The notes beneath the pieces are model-generated. The model was not told the DNA's origin. It was given only the letters and a program-made list of their open reading frames with translations, and made no database searches. DNA of 64,000 bases, taken from IMG/VR virus record IMGVR_UViG_3300025647_000019, positions 29,965-93,964 of that record; one strand, 5' to 3'. The stretch comes from a virus. The number at the start of each line of letters is the position of its first letter. Within the stretch, counting starts at the first letter, position 1. This document shows positions 38,822-54,054 of the stretch, in pieces. The position numbers and the translations under genes were made by a program.

Positions 38822-38877
38822 GAGCGGGATACTATACGGAGCCGAAGTAACATTTTTGAAGTATCCCACTCTTTTTT
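38822..38877 (+). terminator. Rho-independent terminator before the glycan operon
   Basis: GAGCGGGATAC (38822-38832) pairs with GTATCCCACTC (38861-38871) with one C-A mismatch around a 28-nt loop, followed by TTTTTT. It separates the lysis operon from the promoter at 38879. Confidence 0.75.
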
Positions 38878-38878
38878 A

Positions 38879-38907
38879 TTTACATTTGAAATTAAAAGTA
38901 ATATTAT
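38879..38907 (+). promoter_or_regulatory. Sigma70-type promoter of the glycan operon
   Basis: TTTACA (38879-38884), 17-nt spacer, TATTAT (38902-38907). 21 nt to the first ATG with TTGGAGGT. No other promoter is obvious until 54.1 kb, so it may drive a 15 kb operon. Confidence 0.75.
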
Positions 38908-38927
38908 ATTATTACTTGGAGGTTTAT

Positions 38928-39290
38928 ATGGGAAGAATAATAGGAATAGTTGGTTCTAGATCTCGCGATTCACAAGCCGATCTTTTAGCAGTATCAAAAA
39001 TTTTTAATGAAATATATCAAGATGGGGATTGGATTTGCTCTGGGGGATGCCCAAAGGGCGGAGATCGATTTGCTATTCTTCTTCATAAAGCTTTTGTTAC
39101 TCCATATTTAGAATTTCCAGCACATTGGGAAAAACATGGAAAAGTTGCGGGGTTTTTAAGAAATAGCGATATTGCTAAAGCTTCGGATATTCTCATTGCA
39201 TGTGTACATATAAATCGTATTGGTGGTACTGAGGATACGATAAGAAAGTTTATTGAAGCTCACGGAGAAGAAAGGTTATATATTGTATGA
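38928..39290 (+). CDS. SLOG-domain protein (YspA/DUF2493-like)
   Basis: 120 residues: GIVGSRS at the start, then ICSGGCPKGGDRFA, the G-G-x-x-G-A/G-D motif of SLOG/DprA-like nucleotide-binding folds, and IACVHINRIGGTEDTI. Small phage forms often belong to the DUF2493 or lysine-decarboxylase-like group and may bind a nucleotide second messenger or act on nucleotides. Start ATG 38928 with GGAGGT. First gene of the glycan operon; relationship to it is unclear. Confidence 0.65.
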   Translation: MGRIIGIVGSRSRDSQADLLAVSKIFNEIYQDGDWICSGGCPKGGDRFAILLHKAFVTPYLEFPAHWEKHGKVAGFLRNSDIAKASDILIACVHINRIGGTEDTIRKFIEAHGEERLYIV

Positions 39291-40426
39291 ATAAAATTAG
39301 AGTTATGATGATACCATCAGATCCTTATGGGGTAGGACATTATCGAAATTTCTGGCCAGCCAAAATGATCCAAAAAAATCATAGTGATGAATTTCAAGTA
39401 GATGTCAGATTCAGGGAAGCCATTACTGAAGACGATTTAAAAAATTATGACATCATTCATTATCATAGATCTATCCCTGCTGAAGATCCTTTAAAAATAG
39501 TAAATCAATTCAAAAATGCAGGAGTGATTACAGTTTGTGATATTGATGATTATTGGGTTCCTCCTTATGGACATCCAATAAGGGAATTAGCTATAAAAAA
39601 GGGTTTACCAAAACAAATCACTGACAATTTAAAAATGGCAGATTATGTTACAACTACTACTGATATTTTTAAAAAGAGAATATGTGCATTAGATAAAAAT
39701 ATAAAAGTAAAAGTACTCCCAAATGGAATTGATCATAATGTGGAAATGTGGCAATTAAAAAGAGAACCTTCAGATAAAGTTCGTATTGGATGGGTTGGGG
39801 GATCTTCTCATGAAAAAGATCTATCTAAACTTCATGGAACCTTTAATAAGCTTTTTTCAGATAAAGAGCTTGAAGGAAAATTCCAGATTATTATGTGTGG
39901 TTATGATACAAGAGGAACAATAACTGAAGTAGGCCCAGATGGTAAAGAGAGAACTAGAAAGATTAGACCTGAAGAATCTATTTGGAATAAATTTGAAGCA
40001 ATCTTTAATAACAATGGAAATCATTTTAAAGACGGGTATGTAAGAAGAAATACTTTACCTATTAACCAATATGGAAAACATTACAATTATATTGATGTTT
40101 GTTTAGCTCCTTTGGTTGAAAATATTTTTAATGAATGTAAATCTGAGCTTAAATTGATAGAAACCGGAATGATGAAATCAGCTCTTATTGCTTCTGATAT
40201 TCACATTTATGGAGAAATGTTAGAACATGGAAAAACTGGGTTATTAATTCCCGCTAAGAAAGATCATAAACTCTGGTACAAATATATTAAAGAATTAATC
40301 CTTAATGAAGAACTAAGAACCTCTTTACAAAACAATTTACATGACCTAGTTGATCCTGCTTATCGTCTTGATGTTTTAACTGAGGATAGATGTAATTGGT
40401 ATAAGGAGATATTAAATGGGCAATAA
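39287..40426 (+). CDS. Glycosyltransferase (GT4-like, GT-B fold)
   Basis: 379 residues: an N-terminal Rossmann domain with YDIIHYHRSIPAED, VCDIDDYW, and a C-terminal domain with VKVLPNGIDH, RIGWVGGSSHEKD and the E-x7-E-type motif LIETGMMKSALIASDI. Typical of GT4 enzymes that transfer an activated sugar to a glycan or to another acceptor. 4-nt overlap with SLOG gene. Acceptor unknown. Confidence 0.8.
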   Translation: MNKIRVMMIPSDPYGVGHYRNFWPAKMIQKNHSDEFQVDVRFREAITEDDLKNYDIIHYHRSIPAEDPLKIVNQFKNAGVITVCDIDDYWVPPYGHPIRELAIKKGLPKQITDNLKMADYVTTTTDIFKKRICALDKNIKVKVLPNGIDHNVEMWQLKREPSDKVRIGWVGGSSHEKDLSKLHGTFNKLFSDKELEGKFQIIMCGYDTRGTITEVGPDGKERTRKIRPEESIWNKFEAIFNNNGNHFKDGYVRRNTLPINQYGKHYNYIDVCLAPLVENIFNECKSELKLIETGMMKSALIASDIHIYGEMLEHGKTGLLIPAKKDHKLWYKYIKELILNEELRTSLQNNLHDLVDPAYRLDVLTEDRCNWYKEILNGQ

Positions 40427-40667
40427 AATAATTCTTGAAAATCTAGAAGGAGTTAGATTCAACAAAAGAATAACCATGGGGGACGATTATTCGTGGATAT
40501 GCAAATCTATTAATCCAGCACTTAAAAATGGATTTTCATCTGAAAATATAGTTTACAATTGGATAGAAACAGTGTATTATAGAACGGATGAATGTTTATA
40601 CGATGAAGAAAGTAATTCTCTATTGACAATATATCGTCAAAGGGATCTACCAAGGAGATGTCCATAA
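40416..40667 (+). CDS. Unknown small protein
   Basis: 83 residues, mixed strands and a Trp-rich middle (DYSWICKSINPALKNGF, IVYNWIETVYYRTDE). No motif. Overlaps both neighbours. Function unknown. Confidence 0.45.
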   Translation: MGNKIILENLEGVRFNKRITMGDDYSWICKSINPALKNGFSSENIVYNWIETVYYRTDECLYDEESNSLLTIYRQRDLPRRCP

Positions 40668-41290
40668 TGAAACAAATTAAATTTTCAACTGACAAGATTA
40701 TGGCATTAGTCGATTATTTCAATAATAAAATCGATGAAATTGAATGCCCTAAAAATCATGCCGCCGCTCGGGCATTGATTGAAGATGTAGGAGAGCGATT
40801 CTTTTCAGCCCCGGCATCCGGTAGATTGATGTATCATAACTGTTGTGTTGGAGGATTACTTGAGCATTCAATTAGAGTCCATACTATTTTTTCTGATCTT
40901 TGTGAAAAATATCATGAAGTTGAAAGCAAAGATGACATTATTATTGCAGCACTATTTCATGATATTGGTAAAATTGGAACATTAGATCAAGATTATTATG
41001 TACCAAAAAATTCAAAATGGCACGAAGAAAATATGGGTCTTTATTATGAATCAAATCCAAAACTTCGATTCATGCCTCATGCACAAAGATCTCTTCAGCT
41101 CTTGGGTCAATATGAATTCAATTTAGTAAATGATGTTTATACTGGGATCCTTATTCACGATGGACAGTATGTTGATGAAAATAAGCCGTATAAAATGAAA
41201 GAAGGAAAGTTTCCTCTTTTGCTTCACATGGCAGATAGACTTGCTTGTGAAATTGAAAAAGAAAAATGGGAGGAATTGAATGGAATTTGA
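40667..41290 (+). CDS. HD-domain phosphohydrolase
   Basis: 207 residues. HD metal motif: LLEHSIRVH, then AALFHDIGKIG (His-Asp pair), and a downstream His in MPHAQRS plus Asp in HMADRLA. HD enzymes cleave nucleotide or other phosphate esters, or phosphodiesters. ATG 40667 chosen: AAGGAG lies nine bases upstream, while the earlier ATG 40658 is directly adjacent to it. Why it sits in the glycan operon is unknown; nucleotide-sugar turnover or phage defence by nucleotide clearing are possibilities. Confidence 0.75.
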   Translation: MKQIKFSTDKIMALVDYFNNKIDEIECPKNHAAARALIEDVGERFFSAPASGRLMYHNCCVGGLLEHSIRVHTIFSDLCEKYHEVESKDDIIIAALFHDIGKIGTLDQDYYVPKNSKWHEENMGLYYESNPKLRFMPHAQRSLQLLGQYEFNLVNDVYTGILIHDGQYVDENKPYKMKEGKFPLLLHMADRLACEIEKEKWEELNGI

Positions 41291-42125
41291 AGATCATTTT
41301 CCTATCTTATCAGTAATCGATAACGATTTTTATTTTGGAATTGGAGGATTAGGAGATTTTGTTTTATTGCTATCAACTTTTTATGATGACGTTAAAGGAG
41401 TAGATATTGTTTTTGTTGCTAATAATGTTAAACAAATAAAAGAATTTTCTAAGTTATTTATCGGTAAAAAGGGAATAAGAAAAGTTTGGATTTATCCTAA
41501 TGAAGGATTTTTTAATTTTCCAAATGGACGTATTGATGCATGGAATAAAATCGCTAATCATCCTTTATGTCAAGGAACAGGAGTTACTCCAAAAGAGTTT
41601 GATTATTATGGTGAATGGGATAAAGTAAAAGAAACGAATGTATTTGAATATTATGGAGTTAAAAAAGATGTAAAGTTTATTACTAAAGCAGTCCCCGTTT
41701 ATAAAAACATTACTATTCAGCCATTTGGTGGATTAGATGCAAATAGAATTTCAGAAATGCCAAGAGAGTTTATTGAAGGAATAACTGAAATATATAAAGA
41801 TCAATATGAGATTTTTTTAATCGGATCTCCAAAAGATAGAGATACTCTAGGGAATATTCCCGGAGCTAGATGGTTAACGGATTTGGAAGATTCTTTACAT
41901 AAAATTGCAATGGCAGAATTTCATGTTGGAGTTAACTCTTGGGCAAAATCTTTATCCGGTATATTAGGAATTCCAACTTATATTTGGCCTAGTAGTTATC
42001 GAGATTTAAGTATGTATCCTAATGATAAAGATCCTGCAGATTGGGTGTTTATTGAAAATTGGGGATTTAAAAATGCTTTAGAATTATTACAAGAAGTAGA
42101 GATAGAAGATGTCAGTGAAGAGTAA
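41280..42125 (+). CDS. Glycosyltransferase family 9-like (heptosyltransferase-type)
   Basis: 281 residues. N-terminal GIGGLGDFVLLLSTFYDDVK (GDxxLxxP-like opening of GT9), C-terminal NITIQPFGGLDANRISEMPR, IFLIGSPKDRD and AEFHVGVNSWAKSLSGILG-IPT, where heptosyltransferases have the S/T-G-x-x-H region. Some catalytic details differ, so the substrate is uncertain. Overlaps next gene by 17 nt. Confidence 0.65.
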   Translation: MEFEDHFPILSVIDNDFYFGIGGLGDFVLLLSTFYDDVKGVDIVFVANNVKQIKEFSKLFIGKKGIRKVWIYPNEGFFNFPNGRIDAWNKIANHPLCQGTGVTPKEFDYYGEWDKVKETNVFEYYGVKKDVKFITKAVPVYKNITIQPFGGLDANRISEMPREFIEGITEIYKDQYEIFLIGSPKDRDTLGNIPGARWLTDLEDSLHKIAMAEFHVGVNSWAKSLSGILGIPTYIWPSSYRDLSMYPNDKDPADWVFIENWGFKNALELLQEVEIEDVSEE

Positions 42126-42828
42126 AAATATATCTGTTTGCACTATAGCCAAAAATTGTGCAGATATTGTAGAAACATATCTTAGATGGGCAACTGATAA
42201 TTTTGAAGAAGTTAATGTTGTTTGTGATTTAGAAAATGATGATAATACTTTAGAAATATTAAATGATTGGGTTCCAAAAATAACTTTATGGACAAATGTA
42301 TTTGATAATTTCTCTGCTCAAAAAAATAGAGCGTTCTCAATGGCAACAAAGCCTTGGATATTATCAGTTGATACAGATGAAATCTATGAAGAAAATATTC
42401 CATGGGATAAATTAGTTGAAGGATTAGAAAAGCATAATCAAGATATTGGATCATTTAACCTATATAATCTTCAAAAAGATCTAGATCATTATCTTGATCA
42501 AGTTCTTCCTAAACCTCGTCTTATGAGAACTGAAATAGCCAGAATGGACGGTAAGCCTGTTGACGAAGGAATTGATTTTGCTGGAAAGAAAATTATTTGT
42601 TTTCCATATGCACATATTCATTTTGGTCACGTTAGAAATACTGAAGCTTTATTCCTAAAAGGTAAAGATCGAATAAAATGGAAAGATACAGATCTATGTG
42701 ATGGACCGGGATTAAAAGAACACGGAGAATCCTGGTTCATCTATAGAAATGATAAATGGAATCAACATATAAAAGAAGTTCCAAATGAAATAAAACGAAC
42801 AATAAGGAGATACCATATTGCCTTATAA
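42109..42828 (+). CDS. Glycosyltransferase family 2-like
   Basis: 239 residues: ISVCTIAKNCADIVETYLRW opening and ILSVDTDEIY (DxD metal motif), with RAFSMATKPW between them. GT-A fold of the GT2 class (WaaE/KdtX-like glycosyltransferases have the same opening). Transfers a sugar to an LPS-like or glycan acceptor. C-terminal half carries a basic, aromatic acceptor domain. Confidence 0.78.
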   Translation: MSVKSKNISVCTIAKNCADIVETYLRWATDNFEEVNVVCDLENDDNTLEILNDWVPKITLWTNVFDNFSAQKNRAFSMATKPWILSVDTDEIYEENIPWDKLVEGLEKHNQDIGSFNLYNLQKDLDHYLDQVLPKPRLMRTEIARMDGKPVDEGIDFAGKKIICFPYAHIHFGHVRNTEALFLKGKDRIKWKDTDLCDGPGLKEHGESWFIYRNDKWNQHIKEVPNEIKRTIRRYHIAL

Positions 42829-43483
42829 AATATTATTTGCTTTTGCAACAAGATCCAGACCCGAAAGAGCTTTATTTCTTTTGAAACAGTATCAAAAATA
42901 TATTCACGATAAAGAGAATTCCATAATTCATTTATCGTGTGATGTTGATGATGAAACAATGAACAATGAATCTATTATTGAGTTATTAAAAACTTTTAAT
43001 GGGGTTAAATATTTTTTCGGGGAAAATAAAACAAAACTTGATGCTGTGAATGCTAATATATCTGGATATGACTGGGATATTGTAGTTGGGCTTCAAGATG
43101 ATTTATACCCTTTAGTTCCTGGATTTGATAATATTATAAGAGAAGAAATGAAAAATGCTTTTGATCCAGATTTAGATGGGGTTTTATTTTTATTTGATGG
43201 AGCTTTACAAATTTGCACTACTCCTTGTATGGGAAGACGCTTTTATAATCGATTTGGATACTTAAATTATCCGGGATATAAATCTTTATTTGCCGACAGT
43301 GAATTAACTGAAGTTTCAGAAAGACTTGGAAAACTTAAAAGAGTAAATAAAGTTTTATTAGAGCATAAACATCCAACAAGAGCTAATATCCCTTATGATG
43401 AATTATATCGAAGAAATGATTCTTTTTGGGATGAAGATCAAGAATTATTTGAAAAAAGAAAGGAAAATAATTTTTATTTATGA
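42818..43483 (+). CDS. Glycosyltransferase-like (GT-A fold, small)
   Basis: 221 residues starting at TTG 42818 with AAGGAG upstream. N-terminal LFAFATRSRPERALFLLKQY and IHLSCDVDDETM; VGLQDDLYPLVPGFD occupies the DxD place; the rest is charged. Layout is that of a small glycosyltransferase A domain, catalytic residues less certain. Likely the third transferase of the cluster. Confidence 0.6.
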   Translation: MPYKILFAFATRSRPERALFLLKQYQKYIHDKENSIIHLSCDVDDETMNNESIIELLKTFNGVKYFFGENKTKLDAVNANISGYDWDIVVGLQDDLYPLVPGFDNIIREEMKNAFDPDLDGVLFLFDGALQICTTPCMGRRFYNRFGYLNYPGYKSLFADSELTEVSERLGKLKRVNKVLLEHKHPTRANIPYDELYRRNDSFWDEDQELFEKRKENNFYL

Positions 43484-44217
43484 ATATTTTGGTTATAGGT
43501 GATAATTGTTTAGATCGACACATATATGGAGAATGTAAAAGGCTTTGTCCTGAAGCTCCGGTTCCCGTTTTTACCCCAATAAGAACTGTAGAAAATTACG
43601 GAATGGCCGGAAATGTTTCTAGAAATTTAAAGGCTTTAGGCAATAAAGTTGAAGAGCTTATTCCCCTTAATGTTCCAGTAAAAACTAGATATATAGATGA
43701 TCATACCAATCAAATGTTTTTAAGAGTTGATGAAGATGATTATTGTTCTTGGGTAGAATTTAGATTGGACGAAATAGATCCTAAAAAATATGATGCAATA
43801 GTAATTGCTGATTATGACAAGGGGTTTTTAACCAAACAAGACATATTATTTATTTCCCGACTACACGATATTACATTTTTAGATACCAAAAAGATCTTAG
43901 GTTCCTGGGCAGAAAGACTGTCTTATATCAAGTTAAACTCCCAAGAATATAAACAAAACCTTGATATTCTAAAGCAAAATGAAACTTTAATGGATAAAGT
44001 AATAGTAACCAAAGGTCCCGAAGGTTGCGTGTTTAAAAATGAAATTTATCCAGTTAAAAAAGTTGATGTAAAAGATCTTTCTGGAGCTGGAGATACATTC
44101 ATGGCTGGATTAGTTTCTCAATACATTCAAAATGGAAATCATATAGAAGACGCAATTAAATTTGCAAATGAATGTGCAACAATTGTTGTTCAAAAAAGAG
44201 GAGTTGCTTGTTTGTGA
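43480..44217 (+). CDS. Heptose-7-phosphate kinase-like (RfaE/HldE kinase domain, PfkB family)
   Basis: 245 residues, PfkB kinase: GDNCLDRHIYGECKRLCPEA followed by PVPVF, the RfaE/HldE opening; MAGNVSRNLKALG; and the catalytic DLSGAGDTFMAGL with the Asp base. In bacteria this domain phosphorylates D-glycero-D-manno-heptose 7-phosphate at C1. Shorter than the bacterial kinase half (about 310). It points to heptose-like activated sugar synthesis, or to a related ketose/sugar kinase. No adenylyltransferase domain is fused. Confidence 0.78.
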   Translation: MNILVIGDNCLDRHIYGECKRLCPEAPVPVFTPIRTVENYGMAGNVSRNLKALGNKVEELIPLNVPVKTRYIDDHTNQMFLRVDEDDYCSWVEFRLDEIDPKKYDAIVIADYDKGFLTKQDILFISRLHDITFLDTKKILGSWAERLSYIKLNSQEYKQNLDILKQNETLMDKVIVTKGPEGCVFKNEIYPVKKVDVKDLSGAGDTFMAGLVSQYIQNGNHIEDAIKFANECATIVVQKRGVACL

Positions 44218-44714
44218 TTATACGAAGATATCTTGATAAGAAAATACAAGGGGTAGAAATTATCCACAGGAAAGTAATGCATGATCATAGGGGATGGAAT
44301 ATTGAAAGATTCAATGAAGGGGAATTTGATATAAAATTTGTAACCGATAGTATTTCTAAATCAAAATCCCAGACCTTCCGGGGTTTACATGGGGATTCAA
44401 AAACTTGGAAATTAATCGAATGTTTATTTGGAAGATTTTGGCTGATTATATACGATAACAGAAAAGATTCTCCAACATATAAAAATTGGACTACTTCAAT
44501 GTTAACTGGATTTAGTGGAGATCAGATTTTATTACCCCCTGGGGTTGCTAATGGTCACTATTGTTTTGAAGATTGTTTATTCTCTTATAAAATGTCTCAT
44601 CCATATACACAAATAGAAGATCAATTTACAATAAAATGGCATGATGAAAATTTATCAGAGGTTCCTTGGCCATGGGAAATAGAACCAAAATATATTTCAG
44701 AAAGGGATAGATAA
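44214..44714 (+). CDS. dTDP-sugar 3,5-epimerase-like (RmlC-type cupin)
   Basis: 166 residues. GVEIIHRKVMHDHRGWNIER, QTFRGLHGDSKTWKLIECL (the F-R-G-L-H signature), then FSGDQILLPPGVANGHYCFE. This is the RmlC cupin fold, which epimerises C3/C5 of 4-keto sugars. Starts at GTG overlapping the previous stop with GAGGAG upstream. Sugar nucleotide cannot be told. Fits with the sugar dehydratase downstream. Confidence 0.78.
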   Translation: MIIRRYLDKKIQGVEIIHRKVMHDHRGWNIERFNEGEFDIKFVTDSISKSKSQTFRGLHGDSKTWKLIECLFGRFWLIIYDNRKDSPTYKNWTTSMLTGFSGDQILLPPGVANGHYCFEDCLFSYKMSHPYTQIEDQFTIKWHDENLSEVPWPWEIEPKYISERDR

Positions 44715-45331
44715 TGGAAAAAAATAAAAGAGATCCCAAAAGGTTTGATACCGAATTATTTGGGTGGGTAAACACTAATAAAGAAGATGATTATTCTTCT
44801 GAAACTTGGGCATATATCATGTTAAATAAAGAATACATCAAAGGCACTGTAATGGATATTGGATGTGCAGTTGGCCTTCATGTTATTCCTCTTGCAACTA
44901 TATTCGAAGATTTAGATTTGGTATATGGGATTGATATCAATCAAGAAGCTATAGATTGTTCTAATAGTAGACTACCCGAGGAACTTAAAGATAAAGTAAA
45001 ATATTATAAAGTTAATGTTTTAGATTTAGAAAATTATCAAGAAGAAAGTTCTATTGATACTATGGTAAGTTTTCACACTATGGAACATTTTCCAGAAGTG
45101 GATTTAGAAGATATATTTAGTCAGATAAAAAGAGCTTTAAAAAATAATGGACACATAATAATTATTATACCTTATGAACATGCTCATAATGATGGGAATC
45201 ATAAAACCTTTTGGAATGAAACTTCATTGTCAGAATTTATGGAAAAAAATGGTTTTGAAACAATTAAATGTAACAAAATCCAAAATAACAATCTTGCTGG
45301 AATATTTAAAAACAATAAGGAAACAATATGA
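44714..45331 (+). CDS. SAM-dependent methyltransferase
   Basis: 205 residues, class I Rossmann methyltransferase: VMDIGCAVGLHVIPLA (motif I), YGIDINQEAIDC (motif II, acidic), DTMVSFHTMEHFPEVD (motif IV), then NNGHIIIIIP. Probably methylates a sugar or another small molecule in the operon. Confidence 0.8.
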   Translation: MEKNKRDPKRFDTELFGWVNTNKEDDYSSETWAYIMLNKEYIKGTVMDIGCAVGLHVIPLATIFEDLDLVYGIDINQEAIDCSNSRLPEELKDKVKYYKVNVLDLENYQEESSIDTMVSFHTMEHFPEVDLEDIFSQIKRALKNNGHIIIIIPYEHAHNDGNHKTFWNETSLSEFMEKNGFETIKCNKIQNNNLAGIFKNNKETI

Positions 45332-46263
45332 AAAGAGTTTTAATAACTGGTGGTGCTGGTTATATCGGAAATGTTTTAGTTGAATTATTATTAGATAAGG
45401 GATATCATGTATTAGTTTTAGATTCTCTTCTTTTTAATCAAACAGAATTGATTAGATTTTCCAATAATCAAAATTTTGAATTTATATATGGGGATGTTAC
45501 TAATGAAGATCTTTTATATAAGTATACACAGTGGGCTGATATTATTATTCCATTAGCTGCTTATGTTGGAGCCCCCATTTGTAATAATAATTACATCATG
45601 GCCAAAGCAGTAAATCAAGACCACGTTGTTAATATTTCTAGAACTGCCGGAAGTAGAAAAGTTATTTATCCAAATACTAATTCTGGCTATGGGATTTCTT
45701 CTAGTGATGAAATTTGTACAGAAGAAACTCCACTTCACCCTATCAGTCATTATGGAAAAACAAAAACAGCAGCAGAAGAAGTAATTTTAGCAAACGATCA
45801 GGTTTCATTAAGACTTGCTACTAATTTTGGTATATCCCCGAGAATGAGAATGGATTTATTAGTTAATGATTTTGTTTATAGAGCAGTAACAGAAAGATCT
45901 ATTGTTTTATTTGAATCTCATTTTAAGAGAAATTATATTCACGTTAAAGATGTTGCTGCAACATTTTTATTTGCAATTGAAAATTATGATAGAATGAGGG
46001 GAAGAGCTTTTAATCTGGGATTATCAAATGCGAATCTAAATAAATTAGAACTTTGTGAAAAAATAAAATACTATATTCCAGAATTAATTATCATTGAAAG
46101 CCCAATTGGTAAAGATCCAGATAAACGAGATTATATTGTTTCAAATGAAAGATTGGAAAAATTGGGATGGAAACCTGAATATAGTTTAGATAATGGTATT
46201 ACTGAATTAAAAAGGGCATATGAAATTATTAAAAATACTAGAAAAAGGTTTGGTAACGTATGA
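45328..46263 (+). CDS. NAD-dependent sugar epimerase/dehydratase
   Basis: 311 residues, short-chain dehydrogenase fold: GGAGYIGNVLVELLL (NAD site), PLAAYVGAP, active-site Y-x-x-x-K in HYGKTKTAAEE, and NYIHVKDVAATFLFAIENYD. Acts on a nucleotide-sugar, with 4-epimerase or related activity possible. 4-nt overlap with next gene. Confidence 0.85.
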   Translation: MKRVLITGGAGYIGNVLVELLLDKGYHVLVLDSLLFNQTELIRFSNNQNFEFIYGDVTNEDLLYKYTQWADIIIPLAAYVGAPICNNNYIMAKAVNQDHVVNISRTAGSRKVIYPNTNSGYGISSSDEICTEETPLHPISHYGKTKTAAEEVILANDQVSLRLATNFGISPRMRMDLLVNDFVYRAVTERSIVLFESHFKRNYIHVKDVAATFLFAIENYDRMRGRAFNLGLSNANLNKLELCEKIKYYIPELIIIESPIGKDPDKRDYIVSNERLEKLGWKPEYSLDNGITELKRAYEIIKNTRKRFGNV

Positions 46264-47807
46264 AAGATTGTTTATTTATAGCTCCTAGAATTTCTAAAGC
46301 TACATATCAGGAACTAGCTGAAAATTTTACTGCAATAGAAACCCCAACTTGGTCATTACTTTTAGCAGAATCTTGTCGATCTATCGGCTTTGATGTTTCA
46401 ATTTTAGATATGAATGCTGAAAGATTAACTGATGGACAAATGTTATTAAGGATCTCAAATGAAGATCCCAGATTTATTTGTTTCCCAGTTTATGGATCAA
46501 ATCCAAATTCAGGATCTCTTATGATGGGCGATGCAATTTTATTAGCAGAAACTATTAAAGAGACTTTTCCAAATATTCCCATAATATTTGTTGGATCTCA
46601 TATGCAAGCAAGACCAAATCAAGTACTACTGGATCATAAGGGAATTGTCGATATTATTCTTACTGGTGAGGGGGTTTATGCTTTAAGGAATTTATTAAAA
46701 TTGGATTATACAGTTGGAGCCCCTGAATTATTAAATTTGGATTCTGTTAAAGGAATAGGATTTATTAAAGACGGAAATCCCTTTTTAACCCCGCCAGAAA
46801 AAATAGTTCCACAAGAAAGAATGGATATTGATCTCCCGGGATATGCTTGGGATCTTTTACCATATAAGGAGAGTCCTTTAGACTTATATAGATCTCATTT
46901 TTTCCATGCAGAATATCAACACGATAAAAGAACTCCATTTGCTGCAATTTATACATCATTGGGTTGCATGTTTAAATGCTCATTTTGTATGATCAATCTT
47001 ATTAATAAAAATGATAATGATTCTATTGGAGTTGCTTCAAATTATTCAGGAATGAGATTCTGGAGTCCCGAGCTTATAGCGGGAGAATTTGATAAGTTAT
47101 GGGAAATGGGGGTAAGAACAATTCGTATTAGTGATGAAATGTTTTTACTTAATAGAAAATATTATGTTCCATTGTGTGAAATGTTAAGAGATCGTGGATA
47201 TGGAGAAGAACTTCTGATGTGGGTTTATTCTCGGGTTGATACCATTAATGATAAAAGCAATCTTAAGCTTCTCAGAGACGCAGGAATTAAAATGGTTTCT
47301 TTAGGAGTTGAAAGTGGAAATAAAAAAGTTCGCTTAGAAGTTACTAAAGGAAAATTTGAAGAAGTTGATATCAAAGATGTTATTCAAAAATGTAGAGATG
47401 CAGGAATTGAACCAATGGCAAATTATATGTTTGGTCTTCCAGGGGATACTTATGAATCAATGTTAGAAACACTTCAATTATCATTGGAATTAAATACAAC
47501 AGTATGGAATGCCTATGCAGCTACAGCTTTACCTGGTAGTCAACTTTATAAAGATTGTGTAGATAAAAATATTCCTTTACCTCAAACATATAATGATTGG
47601 TCATTCTTTTCTGAAAATACTATTGGTATTCCAACAGAAGAATTAACTTCCGATCAAATTATAGAATTTAGAGATTGGGCATATCAAGTTTATCATACTT
47701 ATCCTCCATTTTTATATACAATAGAAAAGAAATACGGTAAGATAGCAAAAGAAAATATTTTGAACCAGAATAAGATTTCATTAAAAAGGAATAAAATTAA
47801 TGACTAA
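46260..47807 (+). CDS. B12-binding-type radical SAM enzyme
   Basis: 515 residues. N-terminal domain (1-150) with the alternating strands of a B12-binding Rossmann fold (FICFPVYGSNPNSGSLMM, PIIFVGSHMQARPN) but no DxHxxG; then the radical SAM core with C236-x3-C240-x2-C243 for the 4Fe-4S cluster, EMFLLNRKYY, and a GVESGNKKVRLEV segment. Such enzymes methylate unreactive carbon or phosphorus or rearrange carbon skeletons. In a sugar operon, C-methylation is attractive. B12 need is shared with the RNR. Confidence 0.82.
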   Translation: MKDCLFIAPRISKATYQELAENFTAIETPTWSLLLAESCRSIGFDVSILDMNAERLTDGQMLLRISNEDPRFICFPVYGSNPNSGSLMMGDAILLAETIKETFPNIPIIFVGSHMQARPNQVLLDHKGIVDIILTGEGVYALRNLLKLDYTVGAPELLNLDSVKGIGFIKDGNPFLTPPEKIVPQERMDIDLPGYAWDLLPYKESPLDLYRSHFFHAEYQHDKRTPFAAIYTSLGCMFKCSFCMINLINKNDNDSIGVASNYSGMRFWSPELIAGEFDKLWEMGVRTIRISDEMFLLNRKYYVPLCEMLRDRGYGEELLMWVYSRVDTINDKSNLKLLRDAGIKMVSLGVESGNKKVRLEVTKGKFEEVDIKDVIQKCRDAGIEPMANYMFGLPGDTYESMLETLQLSLELNTTVWNAYAATALPGSQLYKDCVDKNIPLPQTYNDWSFFSENTIGIPTEELTSDQIIEFRDWAYQVYHTYPPFLYTIEKKYGKIAKENILNQNKISLKRNKIND

Positions 47808-48780
47808 AAAAATATGTATAATTTTTTGTACGTGTTCAAGAAACCCAAATCAGGGAAATGCTTGGAAAATTTCAACATTGCAGAATTTATTTTCTCAGAC
47901 ATCAGAAAAATATGAATATACTTTTGTAAGTTCGGATTGTTGTTCTCATCCAGATAATAGAAATAATTTAATTAATTTCAATTTTGATGGAAGAGGTTTT
48001 GATTATATTAATCATATTGATACTCCCATATCTCTACAAATGTCATTAAATCATACAATAAAAAAAGTTCACGAAATAGATCCTCACGATTATTATATAA
48101 TGTGGAGTAGTGATACTGGATTCTTAGATCCATATGCAATTCAAAAAATTATAAACGAATTAGATAATGATGATTCAATTTTTGCCCCGGGGTGGAAATG
48201 TGATTTAGCTGGTCCTCCATTTGGAGAAGCTCACAAATATAAACCAGATGTAAAGAAAACTATTTTGCCAATTGGTTATGGATTTAATGGAATATTCGTA
48301 GGATTTTCAAAATATCATGTTGAAAAATATAATTTAAAACCATATTCTGATGTTGTTTTAACTAATTGCGGAGAATGTATGTTAACATATCAAGCTGCTG
48401 CAATAAAAAAACATCAATCAATTATTAATTATGTTTGCTTAGAGGAAAAAATGTGTCCCCCAGATGGATCTTCAAATCTCTTTATGGGGAGAAGGGAAAA
48501 TTTAGTAAGAACATTAAATCTTCGAGGTCCTTCTGGTGAATTAACTTTATGGGATAATTCGAAATATAATTTTAAAGAAATGGTTGAAGGGGGATTAAAA
48601 TATGGATTAGGATATCAAGAAATGGATGCAAATCAATGGTGGTTACATGATCCAAATTGTTATGATGAAAATTATTTCTGTACAAATGATGATTTGTATC
48701 ATTACATAAAAAACAATTGGTATATAAAAAAAGAAGATTTTGATTATGATGCAAATCATGGTGAATTTAGGAGGTTATAA
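47800..48780 (+). CDS. Putative glycosyltransferase (GT-A fold)
   Basis: 326 residues. CIIFCTCSRNPNQGNAWK opening, YYIMWSSDTGFLDPYAI (DxD-like), IFAPGWKCDLAGPPF and VGFSKYHVEKY. The order fits a GT-A type transferase; the C-terminal half is Trp/Tyr-rich and unfamiliar. Overlaps neighbours. Acceptor unknown. Confidence 0.55.
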   Translation: MTKKICIIFCTCSRNPNQGNAWKISTLQNLFSQTSEKYEYTFVSSDCCSHPDNRNNLINFNFDGRGFDYINHIDTPISLQMSLNHTIKKVHEIDPHDYYIMWSSDTGFLDPYAIQKIINELDNDDSIFAPGWKCDLAGPPFGEAHKYKPDVKKTILPIGYGFNGIFVGFSKYHVEKYNLKPYSDVVLTNCGECMLTYQAAAIKKHQSIINYVCLEEKMCPPDGSSNLFMGRRENLVRTLNLRGPSGELTLWDNSKYNFKEMVEGGLKYGLGYQEMDANQWWLHDPNCYDENYFCTNDDLYHYIKNNWYIKKEDFDYDANHGEFRRL

Positions 48781-49322
48781 TGGTAATTAGAAAAGCTTTG
48801 ATATTAACTTATGATAAATTTCAGGATAATGAAGTTCTTTATCCTTATTATCGATTACAAGAGGCGGGATTTAAGGTAGATGTTTCTGCTGAAAAGATTG
48901 GACCTATTTTTGGAATCAATGGATGTAAAATGATGGCAACAGTAGAAGCAGATAAAATTAATCCTGATGATTATGATTTCCTTTGTATTCCCGGAGGAGT
49001 TAAAGCTTTAGAAAAGCTTCGTCAAGTTTCAGAAGCAATTGAATTTACTAGAAAATTTCATGACGATGGAAAAATTATTGCTTCAATTTGTCATGGGGCT
49101 CAAATACTAATTTCAGCTGGGGTTTGTAAAGGAAAGAAAATTTCTGGATATTATAGCATCAAAGACGATATTATTAATGCTGGTGGAACTTATATAGATG
49201 AAGCTTGGGCTCGAGACGGAAATGTTATTTCTTCACCTCATTATGATTTTATGCCGGAATGGTTAGCCATAGCTTTGAAGATGTATGATACATGGAGTCT
49301 TGTTAACAATGACAGATCATAA
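48780..49322 (+). CDS. DJ-1/PfpI family protein
   Basis: 180 residues, full PfpI fold: ALILTYDKFQDNEVLYPYYR, IPGGVKALEKLR, and the nucleophile elbow SICHGAQILISAG (Cys). Family members act as deglycases, glyoxalases or amidotransferase-like hydrolases. The final His (PHYDFMPEW) is kept. In a glycan operon it may remove reactive dicarbonyls or act on sugar carbonyls; unknown. Confidence 0.82.
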   Translation: MVIRKALILTYDKFQDNEVLYPYYRLQEAGFKVDVSAEKIGPIFGINGCKMMATVEADKINPDDYDFLCIPGGVKALEKLRQVSEAIEFTRKFHDDGKIIASICHGAQILISAGVCKGKKISGYYSIKDDIINAGGTYIDEAWARDGNVISSPHYDFMPEWLAIALKMYDTWSLVNNDRS

Positions 49323-49977
49323 AAATGTAATTGTCAAAAAGCCCTGGGGAAAAGAATATCTCATTTTCGAAAATGATGATGTTGGTATTTGGGCTTTACA
49401 TATTAATAAGGGTGAGAGTACTTCATTGCACTGTCACCCTAAAAAAAATACGGGACTGATTATATTAAAGGGGGAAGTAGAAGTTTCCTTTTTAAATGAT
49501 TCAAGAATTCATGTTCCAATGGACAAAATAATGATCCGAAGAGGATTATTTCATTCTTCAAAAGCTATAACTGATGCAGTCATCCTTGAAATAGAAAGTC
49601 CAAAAGATAAATTGGATCTAGTTAGATTTACAGATAATTACGGAAGAAAATATAAACCCTATGAAGGAAAAGATCAAGAAATAGAAAGAACTGATGAGTT
49701 ATGGATTGAAGTTCCTGAAGATCACATAGTTAGCTGTAAATCGGCTTTTGGTAAATTATTTGTAACTGAAAGAACTAATACGGGTAGAATTCCCCTTACA
49801 ACTCACGAATTAGACATAATAATAATTTGTGAAGGAGGAATTATTGATCAGAAGACTGGATGGTATGTTGCTGCTCCGGGTGATGTTATAACTTCAAAGG
49901 TTATGAATATATTATTAGAAAGATTTAATCCAACTCAATCATTAGTTACTATAAAAATTCCAGTCGGGAAAGGTTAA
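49309..49977 (+). CDS. Cupin-domain protein (phosphomannose isomerase-like)
   Basis: 222 residues. VKKPWGKEYLIFENDDVGIW and STSLHCHPKKNTGLIILKGE form a cupin (His-x-His, Glu), like type II mannose-6-phosphate isomerases; a second cupin-like part (IPLTTHELDIIIICEGG) follows. ATG 49309 is chosen over an ATG 24 nt upstream. Likely sugar isomerase or sugar-binding enzyme. Confidence 0.7.
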   Translation: MTDHKNVIVKKPWGKEYLIFENDDVGIWALHINKGESTSLHCHPKKNTGLIILKGEVEVSFLNDSRIHVPMDKIMIRRGLFHSSKAITDAVILEIESPKDKLDLVRFTDNYGRKYKPYEGKDQEIERTDELWIEVPEDHIVSCKSAFGKLFVTERTNTGRIPLTTHELDIIIICEGGIIDQKTGWYVAAPGDVITSKVMNILLERFNPTQSLVTIKIPVGKG

Positions 49978-49978
49978 T

Positions 49979-50770
49979 ATGTTTGAACAAATTTGTTATA
50001 ATAGATTTTTTGAATTTGAAGTAGCAAAAGCTATTGAAGAAAAAAGAATTCAGATACCAGTTTATTTATCAGCAGGACAAGAATCAATTCCAGTTGGGGT
50101 TCATTCAGTATATCCGGATGCTGCTATTTTTGCACAGCACAGATGTCATTCATGGTATCTTACTTATGGAGGTTCTCCTGAAAAATTACGTGATGAACTC
50201 TTGGGATTAGAAACCGGATGTGCAAAAGGAATGGGGGGATCTGCTTCTATTCACGATCCCGATATTCCTATGTTTGGACATAGTGGGCTAATGGGGGATC
50301 AAGTTCCTATTGCTGTTGGTTATGCTCTTGAATCTCAAAAAACAACTATAGCAGTTATTGGAGACGGGGCAGTAGAAGAAGATTATGTTCTTGCTTCATT
50401 AGGTTTTGCTGCAACTAAAAACTGTCCAATATTATTTGTAGTTGAAGATAATAATTTAGCTATTCTTACTGAAAAGAAAGTAAGAAGGTCTTGGAGTATC
50501 GTAGATGTTGCTAAAGGATTTGGATTGAATTCAGCTCATTGTTCAGATGATCCAACTGAAATAAAACATACTTTAGAAATTTTAAAATTACCTGCATTAA
50601 TCAATGTTCATACACATAGACATTTATGGCATGCTGGATCTGGAAATGATGGTCCTCCTGAATTTAATAGATATGAAGATATTAAATCTAGATATAGATT
50701 GGGGTTTCTTGGTGATGAAATGGAACGTAATGTTATAAATGAAGTGAGGGAATTATGGCAAAAACAGTAG
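49979..50770 (+). CDS. TPP-dependent dehydrogenase E1 alpha-like subunit
   Basis: 263 residues: YLSAGQESIPVGVHSVYPD, AQHRCHSWYLTYGG, GMGGSASI, and the TPP motif GDGAVEEDYVLASLGFA ending VVEDNN (128-159). This matches the alpha subunit of pyruvate/acetoin-type E1 but is shorter (usual 320-360). The beta subunit follows, overlapping by 16 nt, so a heterotetramer is expected. No E2 or E3 gene is here, which argues against an oxidative dehydrogenase complex and for a C2 transfer on a small molecule. Confidence 0.82.
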   Translation: MFEQICYNRFFEFEVAKAIEEKRIQIPVYLSAGQESIPVGVHSVYPDAAIFAQHRCHSWYLTYGGSPEKLRDELLGLETGCAKGMGGSASIHDPDIPMFGHSGLMGDQVPIAVGYALESQKTTIAVIGDGAVEEDYVLASLGFAATKNCPILFVVEDNNLAILTEKKVRRSWSIVDVAKGFGLNSAHCSDDPTEIKHTLEILKLPALINVHTHRHLWHAGSGNDGPPEFNRYEDIKSRYRLGFLGDEMERNVINEVRELWQKQ

Positions 50771-51666
50771 CTGAAACCATTAGGGATACCACAAGATCTC
50801 ATTTGGAAAAAGGCGGAAAATTATTTGGGCAATGTGTAACTGCTGTTGGTTGGGTCGGAGGAACAATTCCTGAAATGACTGAAGAAGAAGGAATTGTAGA
50901 ATTAGCCCTATCAGATTCTTCCAATCCGGGAATGCCAATTGGTTGTGCCTTAGCTGGTAATCGACCAATTTATGTAGTTCGATATCAGGGCTTTTTATGG
51001 TATAATGCTGTATCATTGATTAATTATGCAGGCAAGTCAAAAGAAATGTGGGATGTTCCTTGCCCGGTTTTTATTCGAGCAATTGGAATGGAAGGAAGCA
51101 TAGGTCCAGTTGCAACTTCTTCTGAACATAGCATGATTATGAGAAAATCTGGTATACCTGTATTTGCTCCAATGACCCCAAAGGAATGGTTAAAAGTTTG
51201 GAATTATTATCTTGAGCATGATGATCCAGTATTTTGTTCAGAACATAGAAAAAGTTTTCAATTAACCGATGAGGGAGATTTATCATATATAAAGTTTTAT
51301 AAGGATGCAGATATAACTTTATTTCCAATTTCTGCAGCTAGATTATCAACTAAAGAAGCTGTTGAAGCTTTATACAATGATAAAAAAATAAAATGTAATG
51401 TTTATCCAATTGTTCAATTAAAGCCTTTTGATATTGGTTATGCTAGCAGAGGATTAATTACCCAAAAAGCTTTAGTTATAGATTCTGACAATGAAATTTG
51501 TGGAGCATCAAAATCTATTGCACACGATATTATGCTTCATACAAGAATTCCAACTCATACTTTAGGGTTAGAAGATCGAACAGCAGGGTTTGCCAAACAT
51601 TTAGACAATGGAACTCCGGATGCTAAAAAGATTTATGATAAGGTGGTTTCTCTTGTTAACTATTAA
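50755..51666 (+). CDS. TPP-dependent dehydrogenase E1 beta-like subunit
   Basis: 303 residues, transketolase-type pyrimidine domain and C-terminal domain: NPGMPIGCALAGNRPIYVVR, RAIGMEGSIGPVATSSEHSM, GIPVFAPMTPKEW, and a C-terminal region on ALVIDSDNEICGASKSIAHD. The beta partner of the previous gene. E1 beta contributes the catalytic Glu that activates TPP; its exact residue cannot be placed with certainty here (EEEGIVELAL). See the finding on branched sugars. Confidence 0.8.
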   Translation: MAKTVAETIRDTTRSHLEKGGKLFGQCVTAVGWVGGTIPEMTEEEGIVELALSDSSNPGMPIGCALAGNRPIYVVRYQGFLWYNAVSLINYAGKSKEMWDVPCPVFIRAIGMEGSIGPVATSSEHSMIMRKSGIPVFAPMTPKEWLKVWNYYLEHDDPVFCSEHRKSFQLTDEGDLSYIKFYKDADITLFPISAARLSTKEAVEALYNDKKIKCNVYPIVQLKPFDIGYASRGLITQKALVIDSDNEICGASKSIAHDIMLHTRIPTHTLGLEDRTAGFAKHLDNGTPDAKKIYDKVVSLVNY

Positions 51667-52045
51667 CGATATACCAACGGGATTTGGTAATCCTGAAAAA
51701 ATAATAGCAATAGATTTTGATGGAGTAATTCATGATTCATATAATGGATATGGTGATGGAACTTGTTATGGAGAACCCATTCCGGGAGCTATTGATGCTA
51801 TAATTGAATTGTCTGAAAATTATGATATAGTTATTTTTACCGCTAAAGCAAAACCAGATCGGCCATTGGTTAATGGTAAAACTGGAACTGAGTTAGTTTG
51901 GGAATGGCTAAAGGAATATAATATTGATATGTTTATTGCAAAAGTTACCTCTGAAAAACCTAGAGCAAAATATTATATTGATGATAATGCAATAAGATTT
52001 GAAACGTGGAATCAAACAATGAAGGAATTAAAAAATGGAAATTAA
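51653..52045 (+). CDS. HAD-family phosphatase-like protein
   Basis: 130 residues: IIAIDFDGVIHDSYNG (D-x-D nucleophile), IVIFTAKAKPDRP (motif II Thr), TSEKPRAKYYIDDNAIRF (motif III Lys and IV Asp). Small HAD without cap, related to phage/NagD-like hydrolases. TTG 51653 with AAGGTGG six bases upstream is the chosen start. May remove phosphate from a sugar phosphate. Confidence 0.8.
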   Translation: MLTINDIPTGFGNPEKIIAIDFDGVIHDSYNGYGDGTCYGEPIPGAIDAIIELSENYDIVIFTAKAKPDRPLVNGKTGTELVWEWLKEYNIDMFIAKVTSEKPRAKYYIDDNAIRFETWNQTMKELKNGN

Positions 52046-53231
52046 ATATCCTCTTGCTAAACAAACAATAACAAATGAAGAAATAGATGCTCTTATTGAA
52101 TGGCTAAAAACATATCCCCGTTTAACAATGGGAGAAATTACCAAGGAGTTTGAAAGAAAATGGGCAGAATATATTGGAACAAAATATGCCGTATTTGTAA
52201 ACTCTGGATCATCAGCAAACTTACTAATGATATATGCGTTACTGGTGACTGGGAGATTAAAGAAAGGTGATAAAGTTCTTGTTCCAGCAGTTGGCTGGGG
52301 AACAACAGTGGCACCACTGATTCAACTGGGTCTTGAACCAATTATGGTAGATGTGGATCCTTTTACATTTGGTATAGATGTTTATAAATGCGAAAGAGAA
52401 TTAGAAAAAAATCCAGGAATTAAAGCAATATTATTTGTTGATGTTCTTGGAGTTCCTGCCAATATAAAAGAATTAAAAGAGTTGGCTTCTAATAGAAAAT
52501 TATTATTGCTTGAAGATTCGTGTGCAGCATTAGGATCAAAATATGATAACAAAATGATTGGATCCTTTGGGGATATTTCTACATTTTCATTTTATTTTGG
52601 TCATCAACTTTCTACAATTGAGGGTGGAATGATCAATACAAACAATGAAGAAATTTTTGAAGCTTTAATTATGTCAAGAAGCCATGGATGGGGAAAAGAA
52701 TTATCTCAAGAAACATATGATCATTTGATTTCTGAAAACGATATTGATGACTTTCATAAACCATTTACATTTTTTATTCCTGGATTTAATTTAAGAGGAA
52801 CAGATCTTCAAGCAAAAATAGGATTAGGGCAAATAGAAAAAGCAGAATGGGTTGCAAATAGAAGACATGAAAATCATAAAAGATATATGAAAAATCTCGA
52901 TAGATATTGTGATTTCCAATGTCCAGTTCTTGGCCCAGTTGAAGATAGAGTTTCAAGCATTTCATTTGGGTGTTTAGTAAGAGAAAATTCAACCAGAAAA
53001 GAAATAGTTAGAAGATTAGTGGACAATGGAATTGAAACAAGATTATTCAGTGCTGGAAATTTGGGGCTTCATCCATTCTGGAAACAGTATAATAAAGATT
53101 TTTCAAATTTTCAAGTAGCAAACTTAATTCATTCAAATGGATTTTTTCTACCGAATTATCCAGAGCTTACATTAGATGAGATTGATTTTATTTCATCAGT
53201 TGTTATAGAAGGGGTTACTCATGAGCATTAA
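52035..53231 (+). CDS. PLP-dependent sugar 3-dehydratase (ColD/DegT-like)
   Basis: 398 residues of the DegT/DnrJ fold: NSGSSANLLMIYAL, VPAVGWGTTVAPLIQLGLEP, EDSCAALGSKYDNK (Asp161 for the pyridine N), and SFYFGHQLSTIEGGM. At the place of the Schiff-base Lys there is His190. This His is the hallmark of ColD (GDP-4-keto-6-deoxymannose 3-dehydratase) and related dehydratases, which remove the C3 hydroxyl of 4-keto sugars instead of transaminating them. So a 3,6-dideoxy sugar is expected. Activity is inferred from this residue. Confidence 0.85.
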   Translation: MEIKYPLAKQTITNEEIDALIEWLKTYPRLTMGEITKEFERKWAEYIGTKYAVFVNSGSSANLLMIYALLVTGRLKKGDKVLVPAVGWGTTVAPLIQLGLEPIMVDVDPFTFGIDVYKCERELEKNPGIKAILFVDVLGVPANIKELKELASNRKLLLLEDSCAALGSKYDNKMIGSFGDISTFSFYFGHQLSTIEGGMINTNNEEIFEALIMSRSHGWGKELSQETYDHLISENDIDDFHKPFTFFIPGFNLRGTDLQAKIGLGQIEKAEWVANRRHENHKRYMKNLDRYCDFQCPVLGPVEDRVSSISFGCLVRENSTRKEIVRRLVDNGIETRLFSAGNLGLHPFWKQYNKDFSNFQVANLIHSNGFFLPNYPELTLDEIDFISSVVIEGVTHEH

Positions 53232-54054
53232 ACCAAAAACTTATCCATCAGAAATTATAGACATAGAATTATCAGGACATAAATTTAAATTTGTAGATTG
53301 GAAGCATCCATCACAAGGAGGGCCTCATTTTGACGTTGGAATGTTTGAATTTATAAAATCAATAGTTAAACCCGGAGATGTTGTAATAGACATTGGAACT
53401 CATGTTGGGGTAAAAACTCTAATGTATGGTTTAGCTGCTGGGAAAAAGGGCGCTGTTTATGGTTTTGAACCAAATCCATATGTTTTCGAGCCTTTTAAAA
53501 AATCTTGTGAATTAAATAGGGATATTATAAATGTTATTCCCGTTTGTGCAGCTATAACTGAAGAACCCGGGAACTTTATTTTTCATTATTCAGACGAAGG
53601 ATATTATAATGGAGGATTTGCTTCTAAAACAGATTATGGAGTTGGAGGATGTGGCCATGTTGTCCCAATAGAAGTTGAAGGAATACGATTTGATGATTAT
53701 TTTTTCGGGGTTGAAGGGAAAGAAAAAATTAAATTATTCAAGGTTGATACTGAGGGATATGATCTATCGGTTTTAAAATCCGTTAAATCTTTATTAGAAG
53801 AAGTCAAACCCATTATTCAATCAGAATTATTTTTAATGTTATCGGATGAAGAAATTCAGAATCATTTAAAATTCCTTGACGATTTGGGTTATGTTAATTA
53901 CTTTTTCCCCGATGAAAAACAATCCGTCTATGGTAAAACCAATATTTATAATTTAAGGGATAAAAATTTCACTTGTAATGAATGGCAGCATGCAAAAAGG
54001 GTTTTCAAAGGCAAAAATTTAATTTCAGTTCATAAGAGTCAATTAGAAGCTTAA
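53221..54054 (+). CDS. FkbM-family methyltransferase
   Basis: 277 residues: VIDIGTHVGVKTLMYGLAAG (SAM motif I), YGFEPNPYVFEPFKKS, IKLFKVDTEGYDLSVL (the FkbM signature), and VKPIIQSELFL. FkbM-type enzymes O-methylate sugars and other small molecules. It is the last gene of the glycan operon; overlaps the dehydratase by 11 nt. Confidence 0.85.
   Translation: MSIKPKTYPSEIIDIELSGHKFKFVDWKHPSQGGPHFDVGMFEFIKSIVKPGDVVIDIGTHVGVKTLMYGLAAGKKGAVYGFEPNPYVFEPFKKSCELNRDIINVIPVCAAITEEPGNFIFHYSDEGYYNGGFASKTDYGVGGCGHVVPIEVEGIRFDDYFFGVEGKEKIKLFKVDTEGYDLSVLKSVKSLLEEVKPIIQSELFLMLSDEEIQNHLKFLDDLGYVNYFFPDEKQSVYGKTNIYNLRDKNFTCNEWQHAKRVFKGKNLISVHKSQLEA

Follow-up and report, generated by a model that had tools for sequence, protein, structure and literature searches.

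What sugar does a tailed phage make when it carries some 15 kb of sugar genes, and where is that sugar placed? The question is raised by an operon at positions 39287-54054 of a 64,000-nucleotide stretch of viral DNA (the window), which comprises bases 29965-93964 of the IMG/VR record IMGVR_UViG_3300025647_000019 (93,964 bases in total). Phage-borne genes of lipopolysaccharide (LPS) type are common, and the sugars that they make are almost never known. A first-pass annotation, made from the sequence alone, proposed a sugar pathway with a heptose-type kinase and transfer of the product by phage glycosyltransferases, and the present analysis supports this proposal. Here we describe a constant core within the operon, which recurs in phages and bacteria and consists of a DJ-1/PfpI family protein (PfpI), a cupin and two proteins, E1a and E1b, resembling the alpha and beta subunits of pyruvate dehydrogenase (PDH) E1. 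It is usually accompanied by a ColD-type dehydratase, a B12-radical-SAM enzyme, a heptose-type kinase, a phosphatase and an SDR protein. The core is tentatively interpreted as a pathway for an activated heptose-type deoxysugar, which would receive a two-carbon modification from a thiamine diphosphate (ThDP) enzyme and then be put on the host surface.

Distribution of the core in phages and bacteria

Genes were assigned using Pfam, NCBIfam and PHROGs profiles. A scan with the E1a sequence retrieved 35 IMG/VR contigs at 46-54% identity, and an alignment-based scan found at least 80 contigs with E1a relatives. The module core recurs in about 75 other IMG/VR contigs. The view of the first-pass annotation that so large a pathway is rarely found complete in a phage does not hold; the cluster of cyanophage S-SM2 is also similar in size. 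A genome scan yielded 45 loci, chiefly from SAR11 single cells and also from SAR116, Thiothrix, Nitrospira, Omnitrophota, Chloroflexi and one Myxococcota genome. When the neighbouring genes were clustered, the numbers of phage and bacterial loci, respectively, were 76 and 40 for E1a, 75 and 21 for PfpI, 72 and 21 for the cupin, 59 and 28 for ColD, 42 and 26 for radical SAM, 35 and 26 for SDR of the 45328-46263 type, 40 and 11 for RmlC, and 30 and 0 for the PfkB kinase. Radical SAM and SDR genes co-occurred in 18 of 19 phage loci, and in bacteria the clusters also include GmhA and a fusion of HddC with GmhB.

One T4-like lineage (L109-L130) has a minimal unit of nine or ten genes between core genes, namely cupin, MDP1, radical SAM, PfpI, E1a, E1b, GHMP kinase, ColD and SDR. 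The pathway proper is most likely represented by this minimal cassette, with the glycosyltransferases and methyltransferases as local additions. A family of 301 amino acids (aa) without a Pfam match (L130:11658-12563 and relatives) was also seen in 17 phage and five bacterial module loci; judged by eye, its HxD...H pattern could belong to a 2-oxoglutarate oxygenase.

Searches of 50,697 deposited phage records gave weak, mostly partial matches to the E1 subunits only, no close relative of the radical SAM enzyme was found in deposited phages, and the DegT protein (52035-53231) returned no matches as a query in the collection scan. The best of the E1 matches, to E1a in Acinetobacter phage MD-2021a, was rejected as unrelated to the module: it comes from a bacterial acetoin operon that is complete, includes lipoyl genes and adjoins host-type genes. 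No description of an E1a/E1b module in phages was found in the literature searched, which comprised open papers only and is weak evidence. The pathway core, or thiamine-enzyme core, appears to be undescribed in the open literature searched; its kind, the phage sugar cassette, is already known.

The E1-like pair and its constant partners

E1a (49979-50770, PF00676) is a short E1 alpha-like ThDP subunit of 263 aa, and E1b (50755-51666, PF02779) is E1 beta-like. The closest solved structures are those of PDH E1. As in the PDH/2-oxoacid dehydrogenase E1 family, alpha and beta subunits, a ThDP motif and active-site His residues are all present. E1a retains H54, H57, D129 (the ThDP-motif Asp) and E134 in 111 of 111 proteins with full E1 pairs, and N159 in 104 of the 111. 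The catalytic Glu59 of PDH E1 beta, however, is replaced by Asp (Asp54 in the window) in all 111. The canonical Glu is retained in the fused cyanophage E1 protein and in a second E1 pair of the SAR11 clusters. Judged by these residues, the Asp-type E1a/E1b pair is a distinct E1 subfamily, and the fixed Glu-to-Asp change in a thiamine enzyme is a biochemical question of its own. No E2/E3 partner or lipoyl genes were found among the conserved neighbour families of the module loci, a count that does not cover host genes elsewhere. An E1-like pair lying inside a deoxysugar cluster without E2/E3 is the arrangement that marks branching pairs of the AviB1/AviB2 type. In SAR11 loci (L050, L069 and L072 among them) up to three thiamine enzymes adjoin one another: the Asp-type pair, the second, Glu-type pair and, in some, an acetolactate-synthase-like protein.

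The two other constant members precede the pair. PfpI (48780-49322, PF01965) has its nucleophile Cys in 96 of 96 relatives. The two-half cupin (49285-49977), with metal-type His residues in 93 of 93, resembles the isomerase half of bifunctional GMP/PMI. Related phage locus L113 encodes the cupin as a fusion with a cytidylyltransferase-like (nucleotidyltransferase) domain, an arrangement reminiscent of bifunctional GMP/PMI. A LicD-family protein (L113:8316-8912) adjoins this fusion (L113:8923-9978) within the module, which suggests that a phospho-sugar or similar group is transferred in L113.

The ColD-type dehydratase

RfbH-type 3-deoxygenation is carried out by a pyridoxal phosphate (PLP) enzyme in which His replaces Lys. 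The first-pass annotation had named a ColD-like dehydratase, and this assignment is borne out. The closest PDB chains to the DegT-family protein at 52035-53231 (PF01041) are those of ColD (2gms, E 4.7e-70), and a His in it aligns with the catalytic His of ColD that replaces the Schiff-base Lys. The dehydratase His is found in 94 of 103 aligned DegT-family proteins from module loci. The remaining nine, with Lys, score low and are separate aminotransferases from bacterial islands. The module member is thus, by predicted activity, a ColD/RfbH-type 3-dehydratase.

Interchangeable parts and the link to heptose phosphates

Gene slots were compared across 39 phage loci whose flanks each span 7.5 kb or more. 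An HldE-type PfkB kinase was present in 23 of these and an HddA-like GHMP kinase in eight, with both in none (Fisher test, 2e-4); the HddA-like kinase occurs in 25 of 27 bacterial loci. The phosphatase slot held a HAD protein of the window type in 16 phage loci, an MDP-1-like HAD in 12 and both in none. On the E1 tree the choice of kinase switches five times and that of phosphatase four times, so the pattern does not stem from one inherited event. It follows that two unrelated kinase types, both predicted to act on heptose 7-phosphate, share one slot and never co-occur. The kinase and phosphatase slots, together with GmhA and the HddC-GmhB fusion, tie the module to heptose phosphates.

A third exchange concerns the thiamine enzyme. 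Three loci (L133, L134 and L135) retain the order SDR, radical SAM, X, RmlC, ColD, kinase, HldE-C; X is a split transketolase (Transketolase_N; Transket_pyr with Transketolase_C), and neither PfpI nor the cupin is present. The last two loci hardly differ and were counted as one, which leaves two related phages with the replacement. Since the PfpI-cupin-E1 block has been exchanged for a split transketolase, it probably supplies a thiamine-dependent two-carbon transfer.

Origin and mobility of the cassette

A sister phage of 114,796 bases (terminase 72% and thymidylate synthase 84% against the window phage) retains the first glycosyltransferase and the HD gene of the operon and, downstream, a 170-aa gene and the thymidylate synthase, AsnB and DNA methylase genes. 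Four unrelated genes replace 41280-54054 in it, and no E1 was found anywhere in its record; 41280-54054 is therefore a cargo cassette. Sugar-nucleotide and glycosyltransferase genes that vary between close relatives of a tailed phage, as here, characterise phage LPS/sugar cassettes.

In the E1 tree, the window E1 groups with Nitrospira, Myxococcota, Omnitrophota and Chloroflexota, apart from a marine phage clade (support 99), and the grouping holds with L113 left out. The supported branches require four or more changes between phage and bacterium, and the cassette is mosaic and mobile. The first-pass annotation had allowed for a recent transfer of the intact cluster from the host chromosome. 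This was rejected in view of the phage-like composition of the operon, whose GC content (0.30-0.34) and skew are those of the rest of the window, and of the nearest bacterial E1 proteins, which are only 54-56% identical to that of the window. Because relatives of the module lie in bacterial islands and the window E1 groups with bacteria, an older exchange with bacteria is likely.

Proposed pathway and acceptor

From the observed gene content, motifs, co-conservation, slot replacement and cargo nature of the cassette we infer the following order of steps, product, acceptor and benefit to the phage. The cupin would interconvert the ketose and aldose forms of a heptose phosphate, perhaps standing in for GmhA. 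The compact HldE-type kinase would then phosphorylate C1, and the HAD protein would take off the distal phosphate. A 4-keto-6-deoxy nucleotide sugar could next be produced by a host 4,6-dehydratase together with a nucleotidyltransferase, which some relatives encode and which the host presumably supplies here; the ColD-type enzyme would remove the 3-OH from this sugar. E1a/E1b, a ThDP enzyme without E2/E3, would add a two-carbon unit at the 4-keto carbon, in the manner suggested for AviB1/AviB2 in the formation of eurekanate and for YerE in that of yersiniose. RmlC, SDR and the radical SAM enzyme may set stereochemistry and bring about deoxygenation or C-methylation, and the two methyltransferases would complete the sugar. 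Finally, phage glycosyltransferases would attach it to an LPS-type surface glycan of the host, altering phage reception during infection.

In yersiniose synthesis a ColD/RfbH-type dehydratase acts first and a thiamine enzyme follows. Only two mechanisms have been described for two-carbon sugar branches, those of the E1-like AviB1/AviB2 and of the ThDP flavoprotein YerE (PMC4425429). Given these two routes and the yersiniose order, the product is best read as a branched, deoxygenated heptose-type sugar. The analogy of pelagimyophages (PMC7029224) makes the host surface the likely acceptor.

Several observations weigh against this interpretation. The Fisher tests ignore relatedness, and independent-pair tests on the tree are too few and fall short of significance. 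The Glu-to-Asp change in E1b may imply slow or different chemistry. The E1 pair occurs without ColD in five phage loci with complete flanks (L090, L108, L113, L126 and L127), which fits E1 acting before ColD. No recognisable glycosyltransferase was found in the minimal cassette of L109-L130, and neither a module-specific nucleotidyltransferase nor a GMD-type 4,6-dehydratase was found in the record. A 608-aa PF01467 protein at 34853-36679 does have an N-terminal cytidylyltransferase-like domain; the sister phage, which lacks the sugar module, has a counterpart of it with GGRFQPxHxGH.

The main rival, possible but on balance unlikely, lets E1a/E1b act early like a transketolase. It would make a ketose phosphate (sedoheptulose or higher) that is then activated, with ColD, RmlC, SDR and radical SAM merely tailoring. 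A true split transketolase does replace the PfpI-cupin-E1a-E1b block in L133 and L134, beside the same kinase and an HldE-C nucleotidyltransferase, and cyanophages S-SM2 and P-TIM68 carry a fused E1 'transketolase' beside that kinase. The loci without ColD, which make E1 the more constant of the two, and the likeness of the nucleotidyltransferase-cupin fusion to bifunctional GMP/PMI point the same way. Yet the E1 proteins are of 2-oxoacid-dehydrogenase type (PF00676) rather than Transketolase_N, most hosts already supply sedoheptulose-7-phosphate, and a ColD-type dehydratase is present with E1 in 33 of the 39 well-flanked phage loci. If instead E1a/E1b were part of a pyruvate or acetoin dehydrogenase, the operon would be an ordinary auxiliary metabolic cassette aiding host carbon metabolism. 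The PDH E1 structures closest to it would suit such a role, but the lack of E2/E3 and lipoyl genes among conserved neighbours, the short E1 alpha-like protein, the Asp in 111 of 111 and the constant sugar-enzyme neighbours make it very improbable, and a PDH or acetoin dehydrogenase serving energy metabolism was rejected because E2/E3 are missing and Asp stands for Glu.

The destination of the sugar is a separate matter. The first-pass annotation had listed phage DNA and structural proteins beside host LPS as possible acceptors. Placement on DNA or virion proteins would be in keeping with glycosyltransferases that look cytosolic, with the absence of an exporter from the operon and with the DNA glycosylation well known in T4-like phages. 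It is nevertheless improbable. No hydroxymethyl-base pathway was seen, and the base-metabolism genes nearby encode a dCMP deaminase and a member of the thymidylate synthase family, the second of which the module-free sister phage has as well. Moreover, the bacterial homologues lie in islands with GmhA, HddA and HddC-GmhB, and related pelagiphage clusters are read as modifying the O-chain (PMC7029224). Nothing points to DNA as the acceptor, and DNA hypermodification was rejected as no hydroxymethylase-type setting was seen. That the operon is a functionless fragment of a host genomic island is hardly credible: the same module does occur in bacterial islands and the sister phage lacks it, but all catalytic motifs are intact, the composition is phage-like, the nearest bacterial E1 is distant and many phages retain the module. 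A phosphonate pathway, considered owing to a PhpK-like radical SAM score and the L113 nucleotidyltransferase fusion, was dismissed, as no PEP mutase was found among the Pfam matches of the operon.

The branched heptose-type sugar on the host surface thus remains the preferred interpretation. The chemistry is narrowed by the constancy of the core and by the parts that can replace one another in it (two kinases, two phosphatases and two thiamine-enzyme blocks), and the nine-gene pathway becomes testable in a laboratory strain. SAR11 bacteria are among the most abundant in the sea; because the core is present in their genomes, the sugar that it makes may be widespread on marine cell surfaces and contested by phages and hosts. 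More speculatively, the Asp-type E1a/E1b pair, PfpI and the two-half cupin might form a new self-contained ThDP-dependent route that builds or branches a heptose-type carbon skeleton. Such a cassette would pass between T4-like phages and bacteria abundant in the sea and in groundwater, where it lies in surface-glycan islands, and would make an undescribed class of surface sugar.

Organisation of the operon

The record is that of a contractile-tailed phage, in which the tail sheath, terminase, portal, DnaB-like replicative helicase, ribonucleotide reductase and DNA polymerase match phage families. Between 39287 and 54054, 19 open reading frames (ORFs) of at least 80 aa (83-515 aa) lie on the plus strand, as do the short ORF, hairpin and promoter-like site ahead of them, and nearly all overlap or abut. 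The 13-15 kb operon is genuine, and its key catalytic motifs are intact and invariant across relatives. The tight arrangement described by the first-pass annotation therefore stands, with 19 genes in place of seventeen and a series that begins one gene earlier. As ORF 38856-39290 overlaps the first glycosyltransferase gene, the transcription unit probably begins there; this short ORF is listed with a TTG start, translation from an internal ATG would give MGRIIGIVGSRSRD..., and only a weak PHROG match was found. A terminator-like hairpin, GGGATACT...AGTATCCC, with a T-rich stretch (38822-38878, fold z = -1.97) closes the upstream unit and is followed by a promoter-like site, TTTACA-17-TATTAT (10/12), at 38879-38907. 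The single promoter proposed earlier is plausible from this site, but sigma-70-like matches are no commoner in the region than in shuffled sequence.

The first genes lie outside the 16-gene cargo (41280-54054). They encode a GT4/GT1-type glycosyltransferase (39287-40426, PF00534; sister phage copy 54%), an 83-aa ORF without a match in Pfam or PHROG (40416-40667) and an HD-domain phosphohydrolase (40658-41290, PF01966; sister phage copy 57%) overlooked in the first pass. Up to five glycosyltransferases had been claimed, of which three are supported by profiles: that at 39287, a family 2 enzyme (42109-42828, PF00535 above cut-off) and a member of a phage family (42818-43483, phrog_14945, E 3.8e-17). 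Two have no profile match. The 281-aa protein at 41280-42125, also without a PDB match, shows GT9 (heptosyltransferase)-like motifs by eye only, and the protein at 47800-48780 is a probable GT-A-type enzyme; two other phages with the module have members of its family next to it, repeated in tandem two or three times. Their single-sequence AlphaFold models had mean pLDDT values of 37 and 34, respectively, and no close relatives were found in viral contigs. As for the O-antigen export and polymerase genes that the first-pass annotation called absent, no Wzx, Wzy or ABC exporter was among the profile matches of the operon genes.

The compact HldE-type PfkB sugar kinase (43480-44217, 245 aa, PF00294) has an intact GAGD motif; it matches TIGR02198 (rfaE domain I) partially, at 121.7 bits against a cut-off of 345, and is about 70 residues short. 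It is followed by an RmlC-like protein of the dTDP-sugar 3,5-epimerase type (44172-44714, PF00908, catalytic His invariant), a class I SAM methyltransferase (44714-45331, PF13847/PF08241), a NAD-dependent sugar SDR of the epimerase/dehydratase/reductase family (45328-46263, PF01370), linked to the radical SAM gene and accompanied by it in 18 of 18 phage loci, and the B12-binding radical SAM enzyme itself (46260-47807, PF04055, PF02310), whose CxxxCxxC cluster ligands are present in 68 of 68. Beyond the E1 genes lie the HAD phosphatase (51608-52045, phrog_1238, DFDG in 29 of 29), which alternates with the MDP-1 type, and, after the dehydratase, a FkbM-type methyltransferase (53221-54054, PF05050). 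Downstream of the operon, 55591-56904 encodes an asparagine-synthase-like protein with a glutamine amidotransferase domain (sister phage copy 60%).

Comparison with known systems

Pelagimyophages have been reported to carry a host recognition cluster with rfaE, glycosyltransferases and radical SAM cassettes (PMC7029224). The cassettes of P-SSM2, S-SM2 and P-TIM68 are likewise phage-borne clusters, in which the compact PfkB kinase is of one family with the window kinase (37-47% identity), and share HAD, cupin, HldE-C-type nucleotidyltransferase, epimerases and glycosyltransferases. In S-SM2 and P-TIM68 a fused E1 'transketolase' lies in the cluster; the S-SM2 'transketolase central region' protein (L039:9975-11183) is an E1 alpha-E1 beta fusion. 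Unlike the window, deposited phages lack a PfpI-cupin-E1a-E1b block with Asp-type E1b. The GDP/ADP-heptose pathways (GmhA, HddA or HldE, GmhB, HddC) share the HldE- or HddA-type kinase, HAD phosphatase and nucleotidyltransferase with the module clusters, whereas no GmhA and no module-specific nucleotidyltransferase was found in the window record.

Two-carbon-branched sugars occur in Gram-negative O-antigens and in antibiotics, and C-4 branched octoses are present in Gram-negative LPS (PMC4753412). AviB1/AviB2 of avilamycin and Pau11/Pau12 of paulomycin are, like the window proteins, two-subunit PDH-E1-like pairs in deoxysugar pathways (PMC4425429). The window differs from them in context, with its heptose kinase, ColD, radical SAM, PfpI and cupin. 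Yersiniose YerE is a single-chain ThDP flavoprotein as opposed to an E1a/E1b pair, and the window has no CDP-glucose genes; what the two systems have in common is a His-type PLP 3-deoxygenation combined with a ThDP enzyme. This enzyme adds two carbons at C-4 in yersiniose (PMC4425429, PMC4753412) and would do so here.

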